Shown one piece after another: positions 1 through 15,822 of a stretch of 41,113 nt of DNA. This DNA comes from Deltaproteobacteria bacterium (GTDB lineage: Bacteria; Myxococcota_A; UBA9042; DTJE01). The notes below the pieces were generated by a model that ran no database searches, was not told the DNA's origin, and saw only the letters and a list, made by a program, of their open reading frames with translations. Within the stretch, counting starts at the first letter, position 1; every line of letters starts with the position of its first letter. The stretch is from the NCBI GenBank assembly GCA_029555025.1, contig JAKPTZ010000013.1:1-41113 (forward strand). The letters run 5' to 3'. Made by a program: the position numbers and the translations under genes.

Positions 1-1856
1 GCCTCGACACCGACAAGCATGGCGGACCGCCCCAGAATCGACTCCCTGTACTCGGCAGGCTGCTGCATGAACAAGGTTACCGACGGCACGCTGACAAGCC
101 TGACCTTCAACCCGGCTGCCTCGATTGATGGAATCGCCGCGAAGCAGATCTGAACCTCGGAACCGCTGGCCAGCATGACCACGTCCGGGGTGCCGTCGCA
201 ATCCCGAAGCACATACCCGCCCAGGCGGACGCATTCCGGCCCGACCGCTTCGGGCCGCGGGAACGCCGGCACGTTCTGTCTTGTGGTCGCAACGGCTATC
301 GGCCCACGATCCCGTTCCAGGATCATCGACCAGCACCCGGCCATTTCAACCGGATCCGCCGGACGCAGAACCGTGAATCCCGGAATCGCCCGCAGCATTG
401 CAAGTTGCTCGACCGGCTGGTGGGTCGGACCGTCCTCGCCGACCCGGAAGCTGTCGTGCGAAAATACGAAGGTCGATGGCACGCGCATCAACGCTGCAAG
501 CCTGGCGGCAGGCTTCAGATAGTCCGAGAAGATAAGGAACGTGGCGCAGAACGGACGGAAGGCGCCGTGCAGCGCGATTCCATTGGTGATCGCGCCCATT
601 GCGTGTTCGCGAATGCCGAAATGCAGGTTGGCACCGGAATAATCGCCTCGTCGAACATCACCACCGCCCTTGATCACGGTATTGTTGGACGGCCCAAGGT
701 CGGCAGATCCACCGACAAGGTTTGGAACGGATTTGAAGGCCTCCTGCAGGGAAGCCCCGAATACCACGCGTGTCGCCTTGCCGGCGGCGGACATGGCGGA
801 ATCCAGGATGCGATCGATGACCGACGCGTCCGGACTGGCCGGATCGAAACATCCGTTCCACGCGGCCTGCCTGTCCGGGTTGGAATCCACGAAACGCGCG
901 AAGTCCCGATCCCACTGGCGGTGAAGCTCGGTGCCGGCACGACCGACCCCGGAAAAGAACTCCGCCACGTCCGCCGGAACATGGAATGTCGGTTCAAGCG
1001 GCCAGCCCAGGGCCAGCTTCGTCGCCTTGACTTCAGCGGCGCCAAGCGGCGCGCCGTGGGTTTCATGCGAACCCTCCATCGTTGCCGCGCCGCGTCCGAT
1101 GAAGGTGTTGCAGATGATAAGGCTGGGCTTGTCGGCAACGCCGACGGCAGCGTCGATCGCATCGTGTATCTGCTGGTGATCATGGCCGTCAACCGTACGG
1201 ACGTCCCAGCCCTGGGCAACGAAGCGTCCAGCCACGTCCTCGCCAAAGGCGAGATCGGTCGAACCCTCGATCGTGATGCGGTTCGAGTCGTATAGGCAGA
1301 CCAGGTTGCCAAGCCCCAGATGTCCGGCCAGCGACGCGGCCTCGTACGTGACACCTTCCATCATGTCCCCGTCGCCGCACAGCACGAAAACCCTGGATCC
1401 GACCGGACCGCCGTCGGCCGTATTGACGCGCGCGGCCAGCATCCTTGAAGCCAGCGCCATGCCGACACCGTGCGCGAACCCCTGCCCAAGCGGCCCTGTC
1501 GTGACCTCGACACCGTCCAGGAAGCCGTATTCCGGATGACCGGCAGCGCGGCTGCCCCATTGCCTGAACTGACGGATTTCATCCAGCTTCAGGTCGTAAC
1601 CGGTCAGGTGCATCAGGGAGTACTGAAGCATCGAGGCATGCCCGATGGACAGGATGAAGCGGTCACGATCCTTCCAGGCGGGATCCTTCGGGTCAAAGCG
1701 AAGGAAACCGGTCCAAAGTACAAAGGCGATGTCGGCCGCGCCCATCGGCGCGCCGGGATGACCCGACTTCGCCGCCTCGATCGCATCGACCGAAAGCATC
1801 TTGATGGTGTTGATGCACCTGGAACGCAATTCCGGGGAAATGTCCGATGGTTTCAT
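1..1856 (-). CDS. tkt: Transketolase, 3' end cut by window edge
   Basis: Thiamine-diphosphate enzyme of the cytoplasmic non-oxidative pentose phosphate pathway that transfers two-carbon ketol units between sugar phosphates. About 618 codons are visible in one unbroken frame, against about 660 for the family, so only the last 45 or so residues are missing beyond base 1. The ATG at 1856 has GAGAGG seven bases upstream. Diagnostic motifs are SGHPGAPMG (residues 31-39), TTGPLGQG (119-126) and the thiamine-diphosphate/metal motif GDGDMMEG (161-168). The pyrimidine-binding and C-terminal domains follow, ending at the window edge in a segment that aligns with the start of the last domain. It lies 67 bp downstream of panC on the same strand, separated by a palindrome and a short direct repeat, so co-transcription is possible. 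No odd residues were seen. Confidence 0.95.
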
Positions 1857-6841: not shown

Positions 6842-7031
6842 CAGACCGGAAGAAGAGTCTTTCCAATTACACTTCGATCTCCGCACGCTTCCGACCTTTC
6901 TCCATTGCACCGGATGCATCCTGCCAACGAGTCCTGCCCGCATATAAGCAATTTGCGACACAGGCGCCGGTTGTTTGACACCAGGTTCAATCGCGTGGCA
7001 GACTTCCTCCGATTGCAACCGAGGATTTTCG

Positions 7032-8174
7032 ATGAAACGTGCGAATCGCCTGCGCATCCTGACGACGCCCCTTGCCGTGATTCTTCCGCTGCTGGTGCTT
7101 TCCGCATGCGGTCAAGACCACGCTGACGTCAACGTCCCATGGGAATCATTCACACCTACGACCGTTGCCACGATGGTCGCGCGCCTGCCCGGCGCCGACA
7201 GCCCATCCGGCACCATCAGAATCGTCGGGGAAGCCACAATCAACGGGCGCACATTCCAATCCTACAAAGTCGCCCTGGATCCCGAACATCCCCAGAACGG
7301 CATCGAACTGTGGATCGAGAAGGAAGACGAAAATACTTTCACCTTCCAGGGTTACGAAGAACCGGGAGTGATGTCGGTCGTGGCGAATCAGCCCCACACG
7401 ATTCACACGGACGGCCCCGAAGGCGTCCCGGAGATTGTAACCTTCAACGCGACATCCACCACTTTCGAGTCGGGCGAATCACTTCCTGGAACCGCGGTCA
7501 TCGAGTACGTGAAAGTGTCTGACGACGAGACGATCGATACCGCCTTCGGCACTCTGTCCGGGGTCAAGCACTTCTCGGGAACGGTCACGCTGCAGGGAGA
7601 AGCCGCCCCGGCCCTGGTCGCAGGAACGCCCCTGGACGTCGAAATCTGGTACCACCCATCGTTCGGCCTGGTCAAGGGGGACATGCCGCTTCTGGGCGTG
7701 GGTCTTGACATGGCGGGCGAGGATGATTGCGGCGACCCGTTGACGCCAGGTTTCAACACCATCCGCAAGGTTGGCGTGGTTCAGCCCGGTGGCGAGCCAT
7801 TCCGGCTTTCGACGTACGACTGCTCCGGCAAATTCAACGCCGACAAGAACACACACGCCAAGATGCTGCTGGAACTGCGATTCGCCGACGATGAGATGGC
7901 CCGGACAACCACACCACCGCCCGTTTTCGAAACTTTCGGGACGATCCTGGGCTATTTCCCGGAGTATCTGACGCCTTCCTCGCTCAGCATCTTCCACCCC
8001 GAAGAAAACGGCCAGGGTTACACATTCTGGTATGCACTGGTTGACCAGGCCGCGAAAAACATCGATGGGGACGACGGCATCTCTTACCGAATCGAAGTCG
8101 AACCGGCCGATTACATGACGAATGCCGTGCGCGCGACCGCCCGCATCTTCTACAAGGTGATTCCCGTGCCGTGA
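7032..8174 (+). CDS. Lipoprotein of unknown function
   Basis: The 380-residue product starts at an ATG with GAGG eight bases upstream. A basic N-terminus, a hydrophobic stretch and the lipobox LSAC (Cys26) mark it as a lipoprotein exported by Sec and lipidated. The mature part is rich in beta-prone segments and resembles no family I recognise; a region such as VEIWYHPSFGLVKGDMPLLG suggests a beta-sandwich or barrel-like fold. There are three Cys residues after the lipid-anchored one (DDCGD and YDCSG region). The 190-bp leader holds a perfect TTGACA (6975-6980) but no good -10 at the right distance. A small hairpin follows the stop, and the next gene converges. Confidence 0.75.
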   Translation: MKRANRLRILTTPLAVILPLLVLSACGQDHADVNVPWESFTPTTVATMVARLPGADSPSGTIRIVGEATINGRTFQSYKVALDPEHPQNGIELWIEKEDENTFTFQGYEEPGVMSVVANQPHTIHTDGPEGVPEIVTFNATSTTFESGESLPGTAVIEYVKVSDDETIDTAFGTLSGVKHFSGTVTLQGEAAPALVAGTPLDVEIWYHPSFGLVKGDMPLLGVGLDMAGEDDCGDPLTPGFNTIRKVGVVQPGGEPFRLSTYDCSGKFNADKNTHAKMLLELRFADDEMARTTTPPPVFETFGTILGYFPEYLTPSSLSIFHPEENGQGYTFWYALVDQAAKNIDGDDGISYRIEVEPADYMTNAVRATARIFYKVIPVP

Positions 8175-8189
8175 CGGCCGATCGGGCCG
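8175..8189 (+). terminator. Short GC hairpin directly after the lipoprotein stop
   Basis: CGGCC-GATCG-GGCCG begins one base after the TGA at 8172-8174, between convergent genes. There is no T-run behind it, so it would be a weak or Rho-assisted terminator at best. Confidence 0.25.
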
Positions 8190-8258
8190 ATCCACTGAAG
8201 AATTGACAACAGAACGAAGCCACGGGAACGCCTGTGTGCGCCAGGCTCGGGAATCCGG

Positions 8259-10127
8259 TCAGGAACATACATGGTCAGCACATACGCCGCTTACGCAGTC
8301 ATTCGAATCGAAGCACTTGCGGCCTGAACCGCATGGCGGACACGACCCGCCGCAATCCAGGTCGCGTTCATCAGCGTTCTCCATTTCGTCCACGCAGTGA
8401 GCCGGGAAACACAGGCTGTTTATGCAGGTCAACTGAGCGTCATCGCAGTCGGCCGCCTTCAGGCACTCGACGCATACGCCCTTCCCGTCACACACGTTGC
8501 CGCCGCTCTGCGTACACGGCGTACCCGGCGGTACCGGCGGGTTGCTCAACTGGCCTTCCAGGCAGACGTCCTGAGTGCATTCCTTCCCGTCCACCGGCAG
8601 GTCGGTGTCGTAAACCGCGTCCGGCACTATGTTTCCCATTCCGTCACACTGGGCCGACCTGCAATCCCCGACCTGGGGATTGGCAACCGTGATTCCAGCC
8701 TGCACGAAGTTCGCACCGCATATGCCGGCAAGGCACAGGAATTCAAGGCAAGGTGTACTGACTCCGCAGTCCGATCCGACCATGCACTGAACACAATTGC
8801 CATCGCCGTCGCATTGCATGCCGCCGTTCTGAGCGCAAGGCGTTCCCGGCGGTAACGGCGGATTGCTCAACTGGCCGTCCAGGCAGACATCCTGGGTGCA
8901 TACCTTGCCGTCCACAGGCAAGTCCTGGTCGTCCGGGGCGTCAGACACGATGTTCCCATTTCCGTCACACTGGGCCGACCTGCAATCCCCGACCACCGGG
9001 TTGACCACGACTTCGCCCTCGGGCGTAAGGATCTCGCCACAGAAGCCCGCGTTGCACACGACCTGCCGGCAGGCGTTGTCCACCCCGCATTCGGATGCCA
9101 CCTGACACTGGATGCACGCTCCACTGCCGTCACATTTCGTGCCGCCACCCTGCGTACACGGAGTACCCGGATCCAACGGATGGTTTGATGCAACGCCGGC
9201 CATGCAGGAGTCCACAGTACACTCCTTCCCGTCCACTGGAAGGTCGGTATCGTCAGGAACGAGCCCAATCCCGCCGGAGCCGTCGCACACGGCCCGACTG
9301 CAATCGCCGGCGTCCTGATCCTGTATCTGCGTTCCGGCCGGCTCGGCCACAAAACCGCATACCAGACCATCACAGGTTCGATGACCACATTCCGTGTCCT
9401 TGCCAGGGCAGTCGTCCGCGGTAGCGCATCCGGTGCACGCCCCGTTGTCGTCGCAGGTCAAACCGTCACCGCAGCCTGTCCCGACTTCCACCGACTCATG
9501 ATTGGGCTGCCCGTCAAGGCACAGGTCAACCGTACAGGGATTTTCGTCATCCGGCACGTCTTCGTCGTAACTGACATTGGTCACGCCGCCATTGCCGTCG
9601 CAAATCAGCACCTGACAGTCACCGGGAACCTGTTCAAGGGGCTGGAAATCGACTGGCAACGGTACGGCCACACACTCGCCGTCATCACACGACGGCATGG
9701 TGCATGGATTTCCCGTCGCGGGGCACTGCGAGCTGTCGGTGCAAGGGCCCGCGTCCGCATCCTCGGCGACTTCATCGACATCATCAAGGACATCCTCGAC
9801 GTCTTCGCCGACTTCCGCTGCATCTTCGATGATATCCGCTGCATCCTCGCCGACTTCCGCTGCATCCTCGACGGTGTCCGCAGCGTCCTCGCCGACATCC
9901 GGGATGACATCGTTCAACACAGCCTGATCGGGCCCGATATCCGCTCCCTCTCCCGCATCCGCACCTGCATCGGCCGCGTCATGATCCTGGCCATCCGGGA
10001 CTTCCACCTGGTCCGATACCAGGTCTTCATTCTCAACATCGGCAACCGTGTCACCGGTCCCGCACCCCATGGTCGCCGCGATCAGGCCGATAAAGATAAG
10101 CGCCACAAAATTCCTTAAAAAGGTCAT
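8259..10127 (-). CDS. Large Cys-rich repeat lipoprotein with acidic stalk
   Basis: A 622-residue surface or periplasmic lipoprotein. The signal peptide ends in the lipobox ATMGC (Cys22). Residues from about 25 to 130 are a low-complexity Asp/Glu/Ala/Val stalk with repeats of the AAEVGEDAAD type. Then come four copies of a Cys-rich module of about 105-107 residues, each with the pattern C..C...C....C, GDC..A.CDG.G, DLPVDGKECT.D.C and GTPC...GG..CDG.G.C..C, plus a shorter fifth unit with CGGSCPPC and ending CVSGVCADHVCS. The last two full modules are nearly identical in DNA at a 321-bp offset, showing recent duplication. Such proteins are common in Myxococcota and relatives; function (adhesion, surface matrix) is unproven. 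Start chosen: ATG at 10127 with GGGAAGA upstream. Confidence 0.85.
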   Translation of the reverse strand: MTFLRNFVALIFIGLIAATMGCGTGDTVADVENEDLVSDQVEVPDGQDHDAADAGADAGEGADIGPDQAVLNDVIPDVGEDAADTVEDAAEVGEDAADIIEDAAEVGEDVEDVLDDVDEVAEDADAGPCTDSSQCPATGNPCTMPSCDDGECVAVPLPVDFQPLEQVPGDCQVLICDGNGGVTNVSYDEDVPDDENPCTVDLCLDGQPNHESVEVGTGCGDGLTCDDNGACTGCATADDCPGKDTECGHRTCDGLVCGFVAEPAGTQIQDQDAGDCSRAVCDGSGGIGLVPDDTDLPVDGKECTVDSCMAGVASNHPLDPGTPCTQGGGTKCDGSGACIQCQVASECGVDNACRQVVCNAGFCGEILTPEGEVVVNPVVGDCRSAQCDGNGNIVSDAPDDQDLPVDGKVCTQDVCLDGQLSNPPLPPGTPCAQNGGMQCDGDGNCVQCMVGSDCGVSTPCLEFLCLAGICGANFVQAGITVANPQVGDCRSAQCDGMGNIVPDAVYDTDLPVDGKECTQDVCLEGQLSNPPVPPGTPCTQSGGNVCDGKGVCVECLKAADCDDAQLTCINSLCFPAHCVDEMENADERDLDCGGSCPPCGSGRKCFDSNDCVSGVCADHVCS

Positions 10128-10154
10128 GGTATCTTCCCGAATCGTGAATTGGGG

Positions 10155-10194
10155 ATAGTCTCTGTCGAATCTCGCCATCAGTCAATCTCGACAG
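10155..10194 (-). promoter_or_regulatory. Putative promoter inside an inverted repeat, upstream of the Cys-rich lipoprotein
   Basis: Read on the minus strand, TTGACT (10185-10180) and GACTAT (10160-10155), 19 bp apart, form a moderate sigma-70-like promoter. The -35 box lies between the arms of a perfect 7-bp inverted repeat, CTGTCGA (10162-10168) and TCGACAG (10188-10194). A regulator binding this repeat would block the -35. The promoter match alone is weak; the overlap with the repeat is what makes it notable. Confidence 0.3.
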
Positions 10195-10257
10195 GTTTTG
10201 TCTTGTCCCCCGAAGGTGGTTGACATTTTTGCGGCGGGTTAATGGCCCGTATCCCCC

Positions 10258-10632
10258 TCACTCCACCCTGTCGGGGGTGACGGCGCGGGTGGCTTCCATG
10301 ATGGGGATGTTGGCTTCGGTGGGGATATATACGATTGTCTTGTTGTCTTCGGACAGCGTCTGAATCCACAGGTAATGCAGGTAATCCTGGTTGCCTTTCA
10401 GGCTGTCGGCGATGATGCGGTTGGCCTGGGCGACGCCCTTGGCCCGGGTGACTTCGGCTTCGGCCCGCGCGGCAGCCTCGATCTTGATCGTGTCACGGCT
10501 GTATTCGGCCTCAGCTTTCTGTGCCCGGCCGTGCATTTCGGCCGACCACACCCGATATGTCGGGACGCCCCACATGAATATGCCGAAAAGCCCGGCCAGA
10601 AACAAAGCCCAGACAAACAATTTTCCTTTCAT
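10258..10632 (-). CDS. Short single-pass membrane protein resembling the C-terminal part of SPFH/band-7 proteins
   Basis: The 124-residue product begins MKGKLFVWALFLAGLFG, with a membrane segment at about residues 4-22, then an Ala/Glu/Lys/Arg-rich helix (AEAEYSRDTIKIEAAARAEA), then KGVAQANRIIADSLKGN..YLHYLWIQTL and VYIPTEANIPIMEA. The helix followed by ANRIIADSL and a YIPTEAN-like strand is what is seen at the C-terminal end of stomatin/prohibitin-type SPFH proteins, but the SPFH domain itself is missing. It may be a genuine short form or a truncated gene. The ATG at 10632 has AAGGA eight bases upstream; another ATG 12 codons earlier (10668) lacks a good site. It is on the same strand as the Cys-rich lipoprotein, 130 bp ahead of it. 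Confidence 0.65.
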   Translation of the reverse strand: MKGKLFVWALFLAGLFGIFMWGVPTYRVWSAEMHGRAQKAEAEYSRDTIKIEAAARAEAEVTRAKGVAQANRIIADSLKGNQDYLHYLWIQTLSEDNKTIVYIPTEANIPIMEATRAVTPDRVE

Positions 10633-10860
10633 CACAGGTTCCTTTGTTGGTTTCTGTTTTGTTGCCATATCTTTCGCACCCGGGATGACCGGCATACCGC
10701 GCCCCGGGCCGTTTCCATACACTTCGCGCGATGTTAATCCTAACTTTACAAACTTGAAAGCGGCAGACAGGCAGGTAAGATGCGGAATAATGACCTGCCC
10801 CCCAAAAACGTGACGGTTCAAACCTGGGACAGTATGGAAACCCGACCTCACGCCAGGTTA
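10633..10860. other. Intergenic stretch without recognised features
   Basis: This 228-bp stretch separates the SPFH-tail protein from the first long repeat of the accessory island. No convincing gene, RNA or operator was found. It must hold the promoter of the minus-strand gene, but no clear -35/-10 pair stands out. Confidence 0.5.
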
Positions 10861-11068
10861 CAACGGCGCTTGCGCCGGTAAGCTCTTGGCGCACGGGCGC
10901 GCGTATTTACGCGCTTCATGCTGACGCACGGGCACGCGTGTTTGCGCGCTTCATGGACCTCTTGAATGCCATCGAGAGATCAACGGCATGATTTCGGGGA
11001 GTTGCGGGACATTTCGCAGCCCGCCACGGGAATTGTTACGAAATTTCGCGAAGTTGCGACGGCTTACC
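10861..11068 (+). repeat. Long structured intergenic repeat, copy 1 (upstream of abiE)
   Basis: Direct repeat of the element at 14320-14492. It opens with 23 bases identical to the other copy (10861-10883), including the hairpin CGGCGCTTGCGCCG. Next come two tandem units of 37 and 35 bp (10884-10920, 10921-10955), each with a GCGCG..CGCGC hairpin and ending GCGCTTCATG; copy 2 has only one unit. A 42-base identical block follows (10945-10986). The rest, to 11068, aligns with copy 2 without gaps at lower identity and contains an internal repeat of ATTTCGnGnAGTTGCG (10991 and 11043). No convincing coding frame. It ends about 100 bp before abiEi. Confidence 0.85.
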
Positions 11069-11166
11069 ATCCCCGCACATTCTCTGGCACTTCAGCTTAT
11101 CTTGCCTTGACCGGAATTCTGGATAATAATACCTATTGGCAGACGCAGCGATTGGTAATATTTGCC

Positions 11167-11787
11167 ATGAGCCCCACACAAAAACAGACTCGAGCCGAGG
11201 AAAACGCGGTACAGATCATTCGGGATCGAGGCGGTGTGGTTCGTACGTCTGAAGCTGTCCGCGCCGGAATCCACCCGCGCACAATCTACTCGCTTCGGGA
11301 TTCGGGGGAACTGGAGCAACTTTCAAGAGGTGTCTTCAGACTTTCTGATAAGGGCTCGATATCCCAACCGGACCTTGTCATTGTGGCCACCAGGATTCCC
11401 CAGGCCGTCGTGTGCCTTACCTCCGCCCTGGTATTTCATGAGATCACCACCCAGATACCTGACAAGATTTTCATCGCACTTCCGAAAGGCGCCGAGCAGC
11501 CACGGCTTGATTTTCCGCCACTGTCCATTCACCGCTTTTCCGGTCCAGCCCTTGTGGAAGGTATCGAGATCCACGATATCGATGGTGTCAAAGTCAGGGT
11601 TTATTGTCCGGAAAAGACCCTGGCCGACTGTTTTAGATTCAGAAACAGAATTGGCATGGATATCGTACTTGAGGCGCTGAAGCTGTACCGGGCACGTCGT
11701 CGCTTCAATCTGTCAGAGCTTGTTCGATACGCCCGACTCTGCCGGGTTGAAACAGTCATGCGCCCGTACCTGGAGGCTCTCTTGTGA
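11167..11787 (+). CDS. abiEi: AbiEi-family antitoxin/transcriptional regulator
   Basis: The 206-residue protein is the antitoxin-like partner of the AbiE type IV toxin-antitoxin and phage-exclusion system. Residues 10-60 form a winged helix (ENAVQIIRDRGG, SEAVRAGIHPRTIYSLRDSG, LSRGVFRLSD) typical of AbiEi, which binds its own promoter. The C-terminal part (PDLVIVATRIP..VVCLTSAL, YCPEKTLADCFRFRNRIG, ALKLY) is the conserved AbiEi C-terminal domain that counters the toxin. The ATG at 11167 is the first start that fits the family; a much longer in-frame extension runs through the repeat and is not used. No strong ribosome site is visible; an AT-rich segment (11121-11161) probably contains the promoter. 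Its stop overlaps the abiEii start (GTGA), the usual arrangement. Confidence 0.88.
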   Translation: MSPTQKQTRAEENAVQIIRDRGGVVRTSEAVRAGIHPRTIYSLRDSGELEQLSRGVFRLSDKGSISQPDLVIVATRIPQAVVCLTSALVFHEITTQIPDKIFIALPKGAEQPRLDFPPLSIHRFSGPALVEGIEIHDIDGVKVRVYCPEKTLADCFRFRNRIGMDIVLEALKLYRARRRFNLSELVRYARLCRVETVMRPYLEALL

Positions 11788-12686
11788 AACAGCTTAAAAA
11801 TGTTTCAGCTTCGGTGCGGCAACGCCTGCTGAACCATTCCCGCGAAAGACATCAGCCCTTCGGTCAGGTGGTTCAGTACTACGCAATGGAGCGCTTTCTG
11901 TACAGGCTTGGCAGATCCGCGCTGGTGGACCGCTTCATTCTCAAAGGCGCCCTGATGCTCCAGGTGTGGCACTCGCCGCAATCCCGCCCGACCATGGACA
12001 TCGACATGCTCGGCAGAACCAGCAACGACGAAGCCGCCGTTGTGGCCCAGATTCGGGAAATCATCTCCACCGACGTGGAGCCGGACGGAATTCAGTTCGA
12101 CCCGGATTCGATCCGCACGGAAGACATAACCAGGGAAGCCGATTACGACGGGATCAGGATACGTTTTCAAGGCAAACTGGATTCAGTCAGAATCAACATG
12201 CAAATCGATATCGGATTTGGCGATCCGGTATTCCCCGGCCCCGAGATGGCAGAACTCCCGACGCTGCTGGACTCGCCGACGCCGAGGCTTTTTTGCTACA
12301 GCCGGGAAAGCGCCATAGCCGAAAAATTTCATGCAATGGTGATTCGTGGCCACCTCAACAGTCGCATGAAAGACTTTTTTGACATCTGGCTGTTATCCAG
12401 GTCCTTCGCCTTTGACAGTGAAAAACTGGCCAAGGCCGTGCGGCTGACATTTGACTATCGTCACACAGCGGTGCCGGAAAATCTCGAAGTGTTTGACCCA
12501 GCTTTTGTCGCGTCAAAAACAGGGCAATGGACAGCGTTCAGAAAGAAATTCAGTCATCTGCACATACCCGAATCGTTCGACGTCATCGTGCTGGATATCA
12601 GCGATTTTCTACGTCCGGTAATAGCGGGCGGCGATGCGTCATCATCGCCAAAACACTGGGAACCACAAGGTCCCTGGCGCGATTGA
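11784..12686 (+). CDS. abiEii: AbiEii-family nucleotidyltransferase toxin
   Basis: Predicted nucleotidyltransferase toxin of the AbiE system, which halts growth on phage infection; some members modify tRNA. The 300-residue product keeps the family motifs: KGA at 54-56, R68-x-T70-x-D72-x-D74 (RPTMDIDM) as the metal-binding Asp pair, the third Asp D142 in MQIDIGFGD, AEKFHAM at 179-185 and MKDFFDIWLL at 195-204 with K196, D197 and D200. GTG at 11784 overlaps the antitoxin stop by four bases, which couples translation. All catalytic positions look intact, so the system could be active. The last 20 residues are variable and may be longer than usual. Confidence 0.9.
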   Translation: MKQLKNVSASVRQRLLNHSRERHQPFGQVVQYYAMERFLYRLGRSALVDRFILKGALMLQVWHSPQSRPTMDIDMLGRTSNDEAAVVAQIREIISTDVEPDGIQFDPDSIRTEDITREADYDGIRIRFQGKLDSVRINMQIDIGFGDPVFPGPEMAELPTLLDSPTPRLFCYSRESAIAEKFHAMVIRGHLNSRMKDFFDIWLLSRSFAFDSEKLAKAVRLTFDYRHTAVPENLEVFDPAFVASKTGQWTAFRKKFSHLHIPESFDVIVLDISDFLRPVIAGGDASSSPKHWEPQGPWRD

Positions 12687-12801
12687 ACCTCTGCTTCCAA
12701 ACGACGTTACTTCAACGAATACCACACCTGCGCGTCACCCGGCCGTCCAGACTTGTACACACGAAGTGGCGAGGCGTTCGACAGCCCCATACCCTGCCGC
12801 C

Positions 12802-13090
12802 ATGAAAATCAGAACCATTTCAAAATTTGCCGTCTTATCAATCAGTTACCTTCGTTCCTGGTTCCGTTTCAGAAACGACTGGCCATGGAAAACCTGGCGC
12901 AGAGGCAACAGTTGGCGATGTTCAAGCAGGCTCGGCCCCGGCCGATGCCGACGGATGCCGACCGTGTCTTCTGGGTTCTGCTGCGGGAAATGTGGGCGAA
13001 GTGGAGCGACACGCTGATCGTGGTGACACCGGACACGATTGTACGGTGGCACCGGGAAGGGTTCCGGCGGTACTGGAATGCCTTTCCGAA
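12802..13090 (+). pseudogene. Fragment of a DDE transposase/integrase N-terminus, frameshifted and truncated
   Basis: From 12802 one frame reads MKIRTISKFAVL..YLRSWFRFRND, which resembles the start of an integrase-core transposase; the match then continues in another frame as RLAMENLAQRQQLAMFKQ..RPRPMPTDADRVFWVLLREMW..WSDTLIVVTPDTIVRWHREGFRRYW. The family usually runs SRNALALENLALRQQLAVL and so on, so a one-base shift sits near 12880. Homology stops near 13090, before the catalytic DDE core. No intact insertion-sequence ends were recognised. It is a relic that marks this stretch as a landing site for mobile DNA. Confidence 0.72.
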
Positions 13091-13144
13091 ACCCAGGAAG
13101 TCAAATTTTTCGTCGACAACCTGATCAAAAATGATATCGCATTT

Positions 13145-13153
13145 TGGTAAAAT
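13145..13153 (+). promoter_or_regulatory. Extended -10 element upstream of the SUMF1 lipoprotein
   Basis: TGGTAAAAT fits an extended -10 (TGn followed by TAAAAT, 5 of 6), 40 bp before the ATG at 13193. It is followed by GGCC, much like the TGATAAAATCGCC element at 15774. No clear -35 is seen, which is allowed for extended -10 promoters. Confidence 0.35.
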
Positions 13154-13192
13154 GGCCTCCGATCCAATTTTGGCGAGGGACTGGACAGTACG

Positions 13193-14104
13193 ATGGTGAA
13201 GATCAAATGGACAATGATGATTGCAACAGCCTTGACGTCGGCACTGATATTAACGATGGGGTGTGGCGATGACACGCATGGAGTCAACGATACGGACGAC
13301 GTAGTTGATGCGGCGGATGCCGAAGATGCGACAGGGCTCGACGGGATGATGTTCGTCCCTTCCGGTTCATTCTGGATGGGTTGTAACGACGCAGCAGCCA
13401 ACAATTGTAATCCTCAGGAAAGGCCTTATCACCTGGTCACCTTAGACAGCTTCTATGTGGACAGGACTGAAGTGACGATCAAGGATTTCCAGGTTTGCGT
13501 GGACGCCGGCGTGTGCAGCCATCACCTGGACGACCAGACATGTTTTTACATAATTCTCGAAAACGGCGATCTGGCACAAAGCGGAATATGGCCAGCATTT
13601 CGCGGCACCAACCAACCGATGGTCTGCGTCGACTGGGAACAAGCGAAACAGTATTGCGAATGGGCTGGCAAGCGTCTGCCGACAGAGGCCCAGTGGGAAA
13701 AGGCCGCCCGAGGAACTGATGGACGCGTGTATCCGTGGGGAAACGACAATCCAGACTGCAATAACGCGGTCACGTATGTTGACGATGGCTCCGAATGCGC
13801 TCCAGAAGTTACCGCCGATGTCTGCAACAAGTCACCGGCTGGTGACAGTCCTTACGGTCTGTGTGACATGGCCGGAAACGTCAGGGAGTGGGTCGCAGAC
13901 TGGTACGACTCCAACTACTATGACACAAGCCCGACCACTAATCCCAAAGGCCCAGACACCGGATTGTATAGAACCATTCGTGGCAGTAGTTTCTATCCGG
14001 GAAATGATCTCACCAACTCTGGCCGGCTTGGTGCAGAGGCATCCAAGGCATTCGTCGATCGCGGGTTTCGCTGTGTTTGGTCAGCAGAGAGTTCAAATCA
14101 ATGA
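13193..14104 (+). CDS. SUMF1/FGE-like domain lipoprotein (non-catalytic form)
   Basis: The 303-residue lipoprotein has lipobox LTMGC (Cys24), a short Asp/Ala-rich linker and a formylglycine-generating-enzyme-like domain from about residue 52 to the end: FVPSGSFWMGC, YVDRTEVTI.DF, PMVCVDWEQAKQYCEWAGKRLPTEAQWEKAARG, YPWGND, YGLCDMAGNVREWVADWY, IRGSSF and RGFRCVW. In true FGE two active-site cysteines follow the RGGSF segment; here that stretch (YPGNDLTNSGRLGAEAS) has none, so it should not make formylglycine. It closely resembles the C-terminal domain of the kinase fusion at 17620. GAGGGA lies about 12 bases upstream. It sits between the two long repeats and may be cargo of the accessory region. 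Confidence 0.85.
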   Translation: MVKIKWTMMIATALTSALILTMGCGDDTHGVNDTDDVVDAADAEDATGLDGMMFVPSGSFWMGCNDAAANNCNPQERPYHLVTLDSFYVDRTEVTIKDFQVCVDAGVCSHHLDDQTCFYIILENGDLAQSGIWPAFRGTNQPMVCVDWEQAKQYCEWAGKRLPTEAQWEKAARGTDGRVYPWGNDNPDCNNAVTYVDDGSECAPEVTADVCNKSPAGDSPYGLCDMAGNVREWVADWYDSNYYDTSPTTNPKGPDTGLYRTIRGSSFYPGNDLTNSGRLGAEASKAFVDRGFRCVWSAESSNQ

Positions 14105-14149
14105 AGACGCCGCCCTGGTCAGAACATGCTCGCTATCTTGTGGCTGAAT

Positions 14150-14311
14150 CGGACACCTCCCCAAACCCGCCCATGGAAGACGGAATTCTGTCTCCATTTT
14201 CGTCTGCCAGTGGCCGAATTTTGGTGATTTTCCATTGAACGAAGGGCAAAAAACGTAAAGAAATCAAAGGGTCTCTGGTGGAGGTAGACGGAATCGAAAC
14301 ACGACTGTCCG
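14150..14311. repeat. Possible insertion-sequence relic bounded by CGGACA/TGTCCG
   Basis: The gap after the SUMF1 lipoprotein holds CGGACA at 14150-14155 and its inverse TGTCCG at 14306-14311, enclosing about 150 bp with no plausible gene. GTGTCCG-type ends are known from IS21-like elements, so this may be a remnant or a small non-autonomous element. Six-base ends can arise by chance, so confidence is low. Confidence 0.25.
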
Positions 14312-14319
14312 CCAAATGA

Positions 14320-14492
14320 CAACGGCGCTTGCGCCGGTAAGCGCCTGACGCACGGGCGCGCGCGTTTACGCGCTTCATGGACCTCTTGAATGCCATCGAG
14401 AGATCAACGGTATCATTTCGGGACGTTACAAAACAAAGCGCAGCACACAGCGAAGATTATCACGAAATTTCAGGGAGTTATGGCGGATTACC
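14320..14492 (+). repeat. Long structured intergenic repeat, copy 2 (3' side of the Abi_2 gene)
   Basis: Same orientation as the copy at 10861-11068. Bases 14320-14342 and 14369-14410 are identical to copy 1. It has one GCGCG..CGCGC hairpin unit (14343-14379) where copy 1 has two. From 14390 to 14492 the copies align gap-free with scattered substitutions. It stops 10 bp short of the stop codon of the minus-strand Abi_2 gene. Conserved length and hairpins with drifting sequence argue for a structured non-coding or recombinational element rather than a gene. Confidence 0.85.
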
Positions 14493-14502
14493 GTTTTCCG
14501 CC

Positions 14503-15435
14503 CTATTTCGTCGCCCAGAACACGCTGTTTTTCCAGTCAACTGGAATTCCCATGGCTTTGCGCCACCTGGGCTCGGCATCCCAACGCCCCAGAAGGCCAA
14601 CTATCTGCCGTCTCCATTTATCTCCGCAGGGCTCATCAATCGACAGATGTCTTAAGATGCACAACACCCCGTATACCTTTTTGGGATCAGGTATCGCAGG
14701 CGGTTTCCACGCTGCCTCATAGGGAAATTTCGGCGCAACCGACAATTCCCGGTTCCAGAGGCGGGAGTGGTGGGCGCAAATGTTTCTGACAAACGCCAGT
14801 GTGTGTAGCCACGACTGAACGACAACCTTGTTGACGCCAAAGGGTCTGGCAAGTACAGCCTGATCGGAACCGTTCAGACCCTTGTACATGAATGAAAGTG
14901 TTCCAAACGACATCACTTCCGCAGCCACCCAGACCGGCAGCTTCGGATACTCGATGTAATCGTTCCTGAAATGCTCTACGAACTTTTCCTTGCTGCGTTC
15001 GGTTTCGGCGTGAAGACCTTGCAGCCATTCCGAATGGCCAAAGGCCTGGTAGAAATTCCGTGCGTCCTCATGGCAATAGGTCCCATACGTCAACGCCAGG
15101 TAATTCGAGATGCTGCAGCGAATCCCCACCTCAACATGCTCAAGCATGTCCATGATAGCAAGGCGCAATTCACGGTCAAACTGGTAAAACTCGATGGCCT
15201 TTTCAAACGACGCATCGGACTTGAACGTATCGTCGGGATTCTTGAATGGATGCCAGTAGCCGGAGAGTCGGTAGTACTTGATCCTTCTGAGAAGTTGCAG
15301 AGCACTGGCCCGGTCGTCAACCTTCAATCCACGGGCCATCAAAAGATCGATCTGTTCTTCATAGGTCTTTGGCGGTTTGCTGAAGTGTTGCTTCAAAACG
15401 CTGCCCGGAAAAAAAGAAACCCGCCGGTTACGCAT
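14503..15435 (-). CDS. Abi_2 (AbiD/AbiF)-family HEPN protein, putative abortive-infection RNase
   Basis: The 310-residue protein matches the Abi_2 family: SKPPKTYEEQIDLLMARGL (19-37), YYRLSGYWHPF (54-64), FYQFDRELRLAIMDMLEHVEVGIR (83-106), LPVWVAAEVMSFGTLSFMYKGL (166-187) and VRNICAHHSRLWNR (216-229). The last holds the HEPN RNase motif R217-N-x3-H222. Such proteins abort phage infection, probably by cutting RNA, and recent work connects AbiF-type proteins with RNA antitoxins and the origin of Cas13. The ATG at 15435 fits the family start; a TTG 24 codons upstream (15507) is possible. No Shine-Dalgarno is visible at either. A UUCG hairpin precedes the ATG, a 12-bp array lies upstream and a long repeat downstream. 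Motifs look intact. Confidence 0.88.
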   Translation of the reverse strand: MRNRRVSFFPGSVLKQHFSKPPKTYEEQIDLLMARGLKVDDRASALQLLRRIKYYRLSGYWHPFKNPDDTFKSDASFEKAIEFYQFDRELRLAIMDMLEHVEVGIRCSISNYLALTYGTYCHEDARNFYQAFGHSEWLQGLHAETERSKEKFVEHFRNDYIEYPKLPVWVAAEVMSFGTLSFMYKGLNGSDQAVLARPFGVNKVVVQSWLHTLAFVRNICAHHSRLWNRELSVAPKFPYEAAWKPPAIPDPKKVYGVLCILRHLSIDEPCGDKWRRQIVGLLGRWDAEPRWRKAMGIPVDWKNSVFWATK

Positions 15436-15437
15436 CA

Positions 15438-15451
15438 GTTGCCGAAGCAAC
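15438..15451 (-). promoter_or_regulatory. UUCG-capped hairpin directly before the Abi_2 start codon
   Basis: On the minus strand GTTGC-TTCG-GCAAC (15451 to 15438) folds into a 5-bp stem with a UUCG tetraloop, ending two bases before the ATG at 15435. It occupies the place of a Shine-Dalgarno site. If the TTG at 15507 were the true start, this would lie inside the coding region. Confidence 0.45.
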
Positions 15452-15553
15452 GCTAGGCGCGGCGGGTCTGTTGCTAACAATACTAAGGCCTCTACCGCCG
15501 AAGTCAAGGAAATTATTGGCCGCCAGCGGCTCTCTTTCCTTGGCTGAAGTGAT

Positions 15554-15661
15554 TTGACCTGCGTCAGAGCTTACACCAGAACTTACATCACAGCTTGCAT
15601 CAGAGGTTGCAGGCGAACTTGTAGCCGGGGTTCTAGCCAAGGTTGTCGCCTGAGTTGCCAC
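15554..15661 (-). repeat. Degenerate 12-bp tandem array upstream of the Abi_2 gene
   Basis: Nine consecutive 12-bp units in exact phase. On the minus strand they include GATGCAAGCTGT, GATGTAAGTTCT, GGTGTAAGCTCT, CCTGCAACCTCT, GCTACAAGTTCG and GCGACAACCTTG, giving a consensus near GnTGCAAgCTCT. A further degenerate unit lies at 15666-15677. The array is about 120-230 bp upstream of the Abi_2 ATG. It could be part of a non-coding RNA. Alternatively it is coding: a small minus-strand frame from 15769 to 15428 reads through it as a Ser/Ala/Asp tetrapeptide repeat, but that frame overlaps the Abi_2 gene and has only a poor ribosome site. The rest of the 387-bp gap (15436-15822) holds nothing else recognised. 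Confidence 0.75.
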
Positions 15662-15773
15662 AACCGAGGCTCGCACCAAACTACGCCAAGGAGCACGTCC
15701 ATCACCGGCAGGCGTCACCACACTGCCCGCCCTTTTCCCGGTGTACGGGATTTGCGCTTTTGGGGGCATTACC

Positions 15774-15782
15774 TGATAAAAT
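15774..15782 (+). promoter_or_regulatory. Extended -10 promoter element for the carbamoyltransferase gene
   Basis: TGATAAAAT (TGn plus TAAAAT) lies 40 bp before the ATG at 15823, with a weak TTGCGC 19 bp upstream (15752-15757). It resembles the element at 13145 both in sequence and in distance to the gene. Confidence 0.4.
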
Positions 15783-15822
15783 CGCCCGTCTGGGGGGGCT
15801 TTGAACCTGCGGGGTATGCACG

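Follow-up and report, generated by a model that had tools for sequence, protein, structure and literature searches.

The abiF RNA motif was reportedly defined by Weinberg et al. in 2017, and AbiF together with its RNA is considered to stand near the ancestor of Cas13. The Abi2/AbiF/AbiD proteins belong to the HEPN superfamily (PMC3710099). In Clostridioides difficile, the RNA RCd22 consists of two abiF motifs and a terminator. It has its promoter upstream of abiF, and most transcription ends at the terminator; the RNA neutralises AbiF in cis as well as in trans and co-purifies with AbiF, and the toxicity of AbiFCd needs R202/H207 (PMC12373285). Lactococcal abiD1 is reported to have a structured 5'UTR and to give a short transcript that ends prematurely, and an attenuator has been suggested for this leader (PMC12373285). 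Moreover, the structure 8VZ6 represents the complex of PbAbiF with its ncRNA (Zilberzwige-Tal et al. 2025, via PMC12737573), in which one RNA is bound per monomer and bulge nucleotides inhibit the RNase activity.

The Abi_2 Gene and Its Product

The window, that is, the whole 41,113-nt stretch of DNA analysed here, carries an abi_2 gene for an AbiF/AbiD-type HEPN RNase toxin of 297 aa (14503–15396, minus strand, so that "upstream" means higher coordinates). It is the sole Abi_2 gene of the 3.49-Mb genome (Pfam PF07751, 189 bits) and, as the sequence-only reading had stated, its R-x4-H motif is intact; within RNICAHH, the R, N, H and H are invariant in all 15 aligned homologues, including the R-x4-H pair. 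The protein is also matched as AbiD by PADLOC, while a search of NCBIfam returned no name for it. The only solved structure matched is PDB 8VZ6 (PbAbiF, E 7e-43), with homology across nearly the whole length and the catalytic R and H aligned, and identity to AbiFCd of phage phiC2 is 30%.

The reading frame is open up to 15507. Translation probably starts at TTG 15396, since ATG 15435 falls within the conserved RNA hairpin described below and the homologues start some 13 residues further on, their N-termini lying near "KP-x-L/K-(S/T)-x4-Q" in the alignment of 15. TTG 15396 is without a clear ribosome-binding site. The numbering R217-x4-H222 proposed earlier is correct when counted from ATG 15435, and would become R204/H209 from the more probable TTG start.

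A Putative abiF RNA between Promoter and Gene

The gene-strand sequence between an upstream 12-bp array and the gene reads ACCCGCCGCGCCTAGCGTTGCTTCGGCAACTGATGCGTAACCGGCGGGT, then TTCTTTTTTT. Within it, the Rfam model of the abiF RNA, RF03085, matched over its full length at 15467–15419 (minus strand) with 21.7 bits, on the strand of abi_2 and immediately 5' of it, and this was the top RF03085 match in the whole 3.5-Mb genome. The score lies below the RF03085 gathering score of 37 bits, and an Rfam search of the whole window at the gathering cut-off gave no match; many other homologous elements adjoining abi_2 likewise score below this cut-off. Other weak Rfam matches in the window (BaMV_CRE, HCV_SLVII and sR14) were rejected as chance, as they belong to the wrong clades and lie far below the cut-off.

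The hairpin has a 7-bp outer stem, a 3-bp inner stem, an apical GUUGC-UUCG-GCAAC helix and the 3' bulge UAACC, and the consensus structure of outer stem, inner stem and 3' bulge is accompanied by covariation. When folded, a longer piece of 86 nt gave no stability signal (z -0.24) and the predicted transcript of 67 nt gave z -2.6; folding energy alone is therefore weak evidence, and the case rests on covariation and position. Upstream of the hairpin, a sigma-70-like promoter, TTGACT-16-TAGTAT (15507–15480, minus strand), is predicted from its consensus match, with a similar position in most homologous loci; 12 nt separate it from the hairpin, and transcription would be expected to start near 15473. 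Directly after the hairpin lies a U-rich tract (15418–15410, minus strand), a probable intrinsic terminator or attenuator, and the hairpin and U-tract together (15467–15410, minus strand) can probably also terminate transcription. Taken from sequence, the element at 15467–15419 is probably a divergent, sub-threshold abiF RNA and the RNA partner of abi_2. The sequence-only reading had supposed an undescribed partner; the element found between promoter and gene belongs instead to a known family, as a member scoring below its threshold.

Conservation of the Element at Other abi_2 Loci

In whole-genome scans with RF03085, the top match was the one immediately 5' of abi_2 in this genome, and the same held for seven other genomes of the phylum, namely G182 (51.9 bits, above the cut-off), G107, G194, G054, G105, G120 and G009; in the remaining genomes of the scan, the top match lay elsewhere or there was none. 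By our own estimate of 100 / (2 x genome length), the chance that the best match falls in the correct orientation within the 100 bases 5' of a genome's only abi_2 gene is about 1e-5 per genome. RF03085 also matched 5' of abi_2 in six of eight plasmid loci from cyanobacteria, alphaproteobacteria and Exiguobacterium, one of them above the cut-off, and at a Legionella plasmid locus (L079) an abiF hairpin was recognised by eye.

A covariance model, R1, was built on 15 hairpins of other abi_2 loci with the window left out; these hairpins were picked from Rfam matches and by eye at the same position, so that their mutual agreement is partly selection. In their alignment, 96% of cells are paired and five of the ten pairs are changed on both sides. 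None of 500 shuffles paired equally well, and shifting the partners by 1–3 columns lowered the pairing to 35–46%. Run on the whole genome, R1 gave the element of the window 39 bits (E 4.1e-7), the next match reaching 20.3 bits. It also recovers the elements of L047/L053 (one gene), of L052 and of L045, the last being closely related to a training sequence. In RF03085 and R1 searches of the homologue loci, no convincing motif match was obtained for L040, L041, L042, L044, L050, L051, L084 and L035; thus, the association of abiF RNA with abi_2 is common, not universal, and abi_2 genes can exist without an abiF RNA.

A comparison of the flanks of Abi_2 homologues had been proposed with the sequence-only reading. 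Across 25 homologue loci, the hairpin–promoter segment at 15397–15510 was the only part of the flanks to match. Most homologues have a conserved RNA element on the 5' side; a conserved 3' flank or array was seen in none. In 18 loci, the best promoter-like match scored a mean of 8.9 out of 12, against 6.8 in shuffled sequence, and lay 11–15 nt before the hairpin. A T-rich tail (at least five T in eight) follows straight after the motif in 16 of 18 homologous loci, and in G107 and G194 a separate terminator follows the motif. The order of promoter, hairpin, usually a U-tract, and abi_2 is found again in several phyla.

Some further observations were made at these loci. The abi_2 homologues of L034, L078, L083 and L084 adjoin type I restriction genes: on three plasmids the neighbours of abi_2 are hsdS and/or hsdR, in L034 an hsdS-like frame precedes it, and in L084, where there is no recognisable RNA motif, it starts one base past the annotated hsdS gene. 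In L044, abi_2 is interrupted by a stop, and on its 3' side, at about 1240–1500 (plus strand), a promoter-like TTGACT-TATAGT precedes an abiF-like hairpin (ACCGACGCCTCTGCAC...GTCGGT); this hairpin points at the 3' end of the gene and was reported by neither RF03085 nor R1.

Genomic Context

The gene lies in a region of about 9 kb (6842–15822) which, in the window, separates a TPR-type membrane protein gene from a carbamoyltransferase gene. Besides abi_2, this region contains an AbiE type IV toxin–antitoxin pair, a lipoprotein gene and a formylglycine-enzyme-like gene. The same flanking genes are close neighbours in four relatives (G013, G005, G006 and G007), where the region is absent; in G013, a genome of the same genus, only 84 bp lie between them. 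Given this absence and a tRNA-Ala 3'-end copy within the region, it has the look of a defence island that was acquired and has partly decayed.

The AbiEi/AbiEii operon (11167–12686, plus strand) looks complete and is about 2 kb from abi_2. The copy of the tRNA-Ala(GGC) 3' end (14156–14305, minus strand) includes the CCA end together with about 120 bp from downstream of the tRNA, and is 85% identical to an intact locus (L003) on contig C134; it may be the scar of an attachment site or of a rearrangement. In addition, a fragment of a transposase/integrase-like frame was seen by eye at 12753–13124 (plus strand), for which a family search gave no match.

Alternative Explanations

The RNA-antitoxin architecture which the sequence-only reading had proposed around this AbiF-type HEPN gene appears right in kind. 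It had, however, looked for the partner in two repeats flanking the gene, both of which are real, and the RNA element is neither of them, being the hairpin with its U-tract at 15467–15410. The upstream repeat is a degenerate array of about ten 12-bp units (TRF, 15560–15611; by eye, about 15552–15690), and between 15541 and 15700 a period of 12 fits best: 61 of 96 positions match, whereas 500 shuffles, scored over periods 6–39, reach 44 at most. Its place 5' of a toxin gene gives the order known from type III systems, and it could be thought to act as an antitoxin like the tandem-repeat ToxI RNAs of ToxIN; yet the predicted promoter begins over 40 bp downstream of it, which probably places the array outside the RNA, the 12-nt units have no terminator of their own, the protein is an Abi_2 and not a ToxN-type toxin, and the array, found once in the genome, has no match in any of the 25 homologue loci. 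A ToxI-like role is therefore highly improbable, and the array was rejected as a candidate. The repeat at 14287–14492, which adjoins the 3' end of abi_2 and forms strong local hairpins, has even less to recommend it, its chance of being the partner being close to negligible: it is about 80% identical to 10828–11068, just 5' of the abiE operon, and is a local duplication of that sequence; it joins the tRNA-Ala 3'-end copy and looks like a trace of rearrangement; and it has no match in any of the 25 homologue loci. It was likewise rejected, and is not considered part of the module. A 33-bp core of this repeat occurs in three copies in the genome, all within the window. As a separate observation, the 12-bp units of the array read on the plus strand in one frame as ASELTPELTSQLASEVAGELVAGVLAKVVA-stop, and possibly are the remnant of a coding sequence.

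The hairpin itself might serve solely as a cis-acting attenuator, that is, a terminator in the 5' leader of abi_2, with no antitoxin role in trans. It is indeed followed by a U-tract right ahead of the start codon, and abiD1, with its structured 5'UTR and short, prematurely terminated transcript, offers a precedent (PMC12373285). However, the inner stem and GCCU...GC(U/G) show more conservation and covariation than a terminator would require, and those RF03085 RNAs that have been tested elsewhere bind AbiF and work in trans (PMC12373285, PMC12737573), so that a purely attenuating function is considered unlikely.

Proposed Mechanism and Implications

The locus is very likely an AbiF-kind module for type III-like toxin–antitoxin action and abortive infection. 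The sequence shows the gene with its catalytic motif, the RNA motif with its structure, conservation and position, and a promoter-like site; from the characterised homologues we infer its expression, termination and binding, the toxicity and its neutralisation, and the phage trigger. A single promoter (15507–15480, minus strand) would give an RNA of about 65 nt ending at the abiF hairpin and U-tract (15467–15410), which would bind the AbiF HEPN RNase dimer and keep it inactive, and occasional read-through of this hairpin-terminator would yield the toxin mRNA (14503–15396). Phage infection or another stress might then lower or displace the RNA, and the freed RNase would cut RNA and cause growth arrest. 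Counting against the module are the RF03085 score below the curated cut-off and the nature of the promoter and terminator, which are consensus matches; so do the single abiF motif, where RCd22 has two, and the abi_2 homologues that lack a recognisable motif. In addition, the locus could be silent, considering the TTG start without a clear ribosome-binding site and the traces of decayed mobile elements in the island.

A more tentative proposal, nearly balanced and tipping slightly towards the negative, is that the element represents a distinct abiF RNA branch, spread over several phyla and mostly below the Rfam cut-off, in which an apically extended hairpin would be antitoxin and terminator at once. 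If this is true, the same structure would set both the inhibition and the dosage of the toxin. Divergent abi_2 genes keep an RNA missed by curated cut-offs, which points to a wider occurrence of the RNA-antitoxin arrangement in the family than annotation shows. The module reading also corrects which sequence at this locus is to be examined for the RNA partner, and the locus offers a very compact experimental case, with a single hairpin that also resembles a terminator.

Comparison with Known Systems

The locus shares with ToxIN the arrangement of an RNA antitoxin gene, a terminator and a toxin gene in one transcription unit. It differs in its toxin family, HEPN Abi_2, and in an RNA that is a single hairpin rather than a repeat array; the ToxN-type toxin and tandem-repeat RNA that define ToxIN are lacking, Pfam giving Abi_2 only. 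Likewise, Cas13 is characterised by two HEPN domains in one protein and a CRISPR array, whereas the protein here has one Abi_2 domain in about 300 aa, and no CRISPR-like repeat family was found around abi_2.

The likeness to the PbAbiF-AbiFr complex (8VZ6), which comes from a different bacterial clade, lies in the protein and takes in nearly its full length and both catalytic residues. With the RF03085 family, the element has in common a full-length match, the outer stem, the inner 3-bp stem, GCCU in the loop, a 3' bulge of 5–7 nt and a position adjoining the 5' side of abi_2 in the same orientation. It departs from the family in its low score, in an extra apical helix, also carried by several other elements, where the Rfam consensus has a loop of 9 nt, and in a stem that runs straight into the U-tract.

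RCd22/AbiFCd of the C. difficile phages phi027 and phiC2 has a homologous protein (about 30% identity) with the R-N-x3-H motif. RCd22 contains two abiF motifs and a separate terminator in about 132 nt, whereas the window has one motif, whose own hairpin passes directly into the U-tract, in about 65 nt; in both, promoter, abiF RNA, terminator and gene stand in the same order (PMC12373285).
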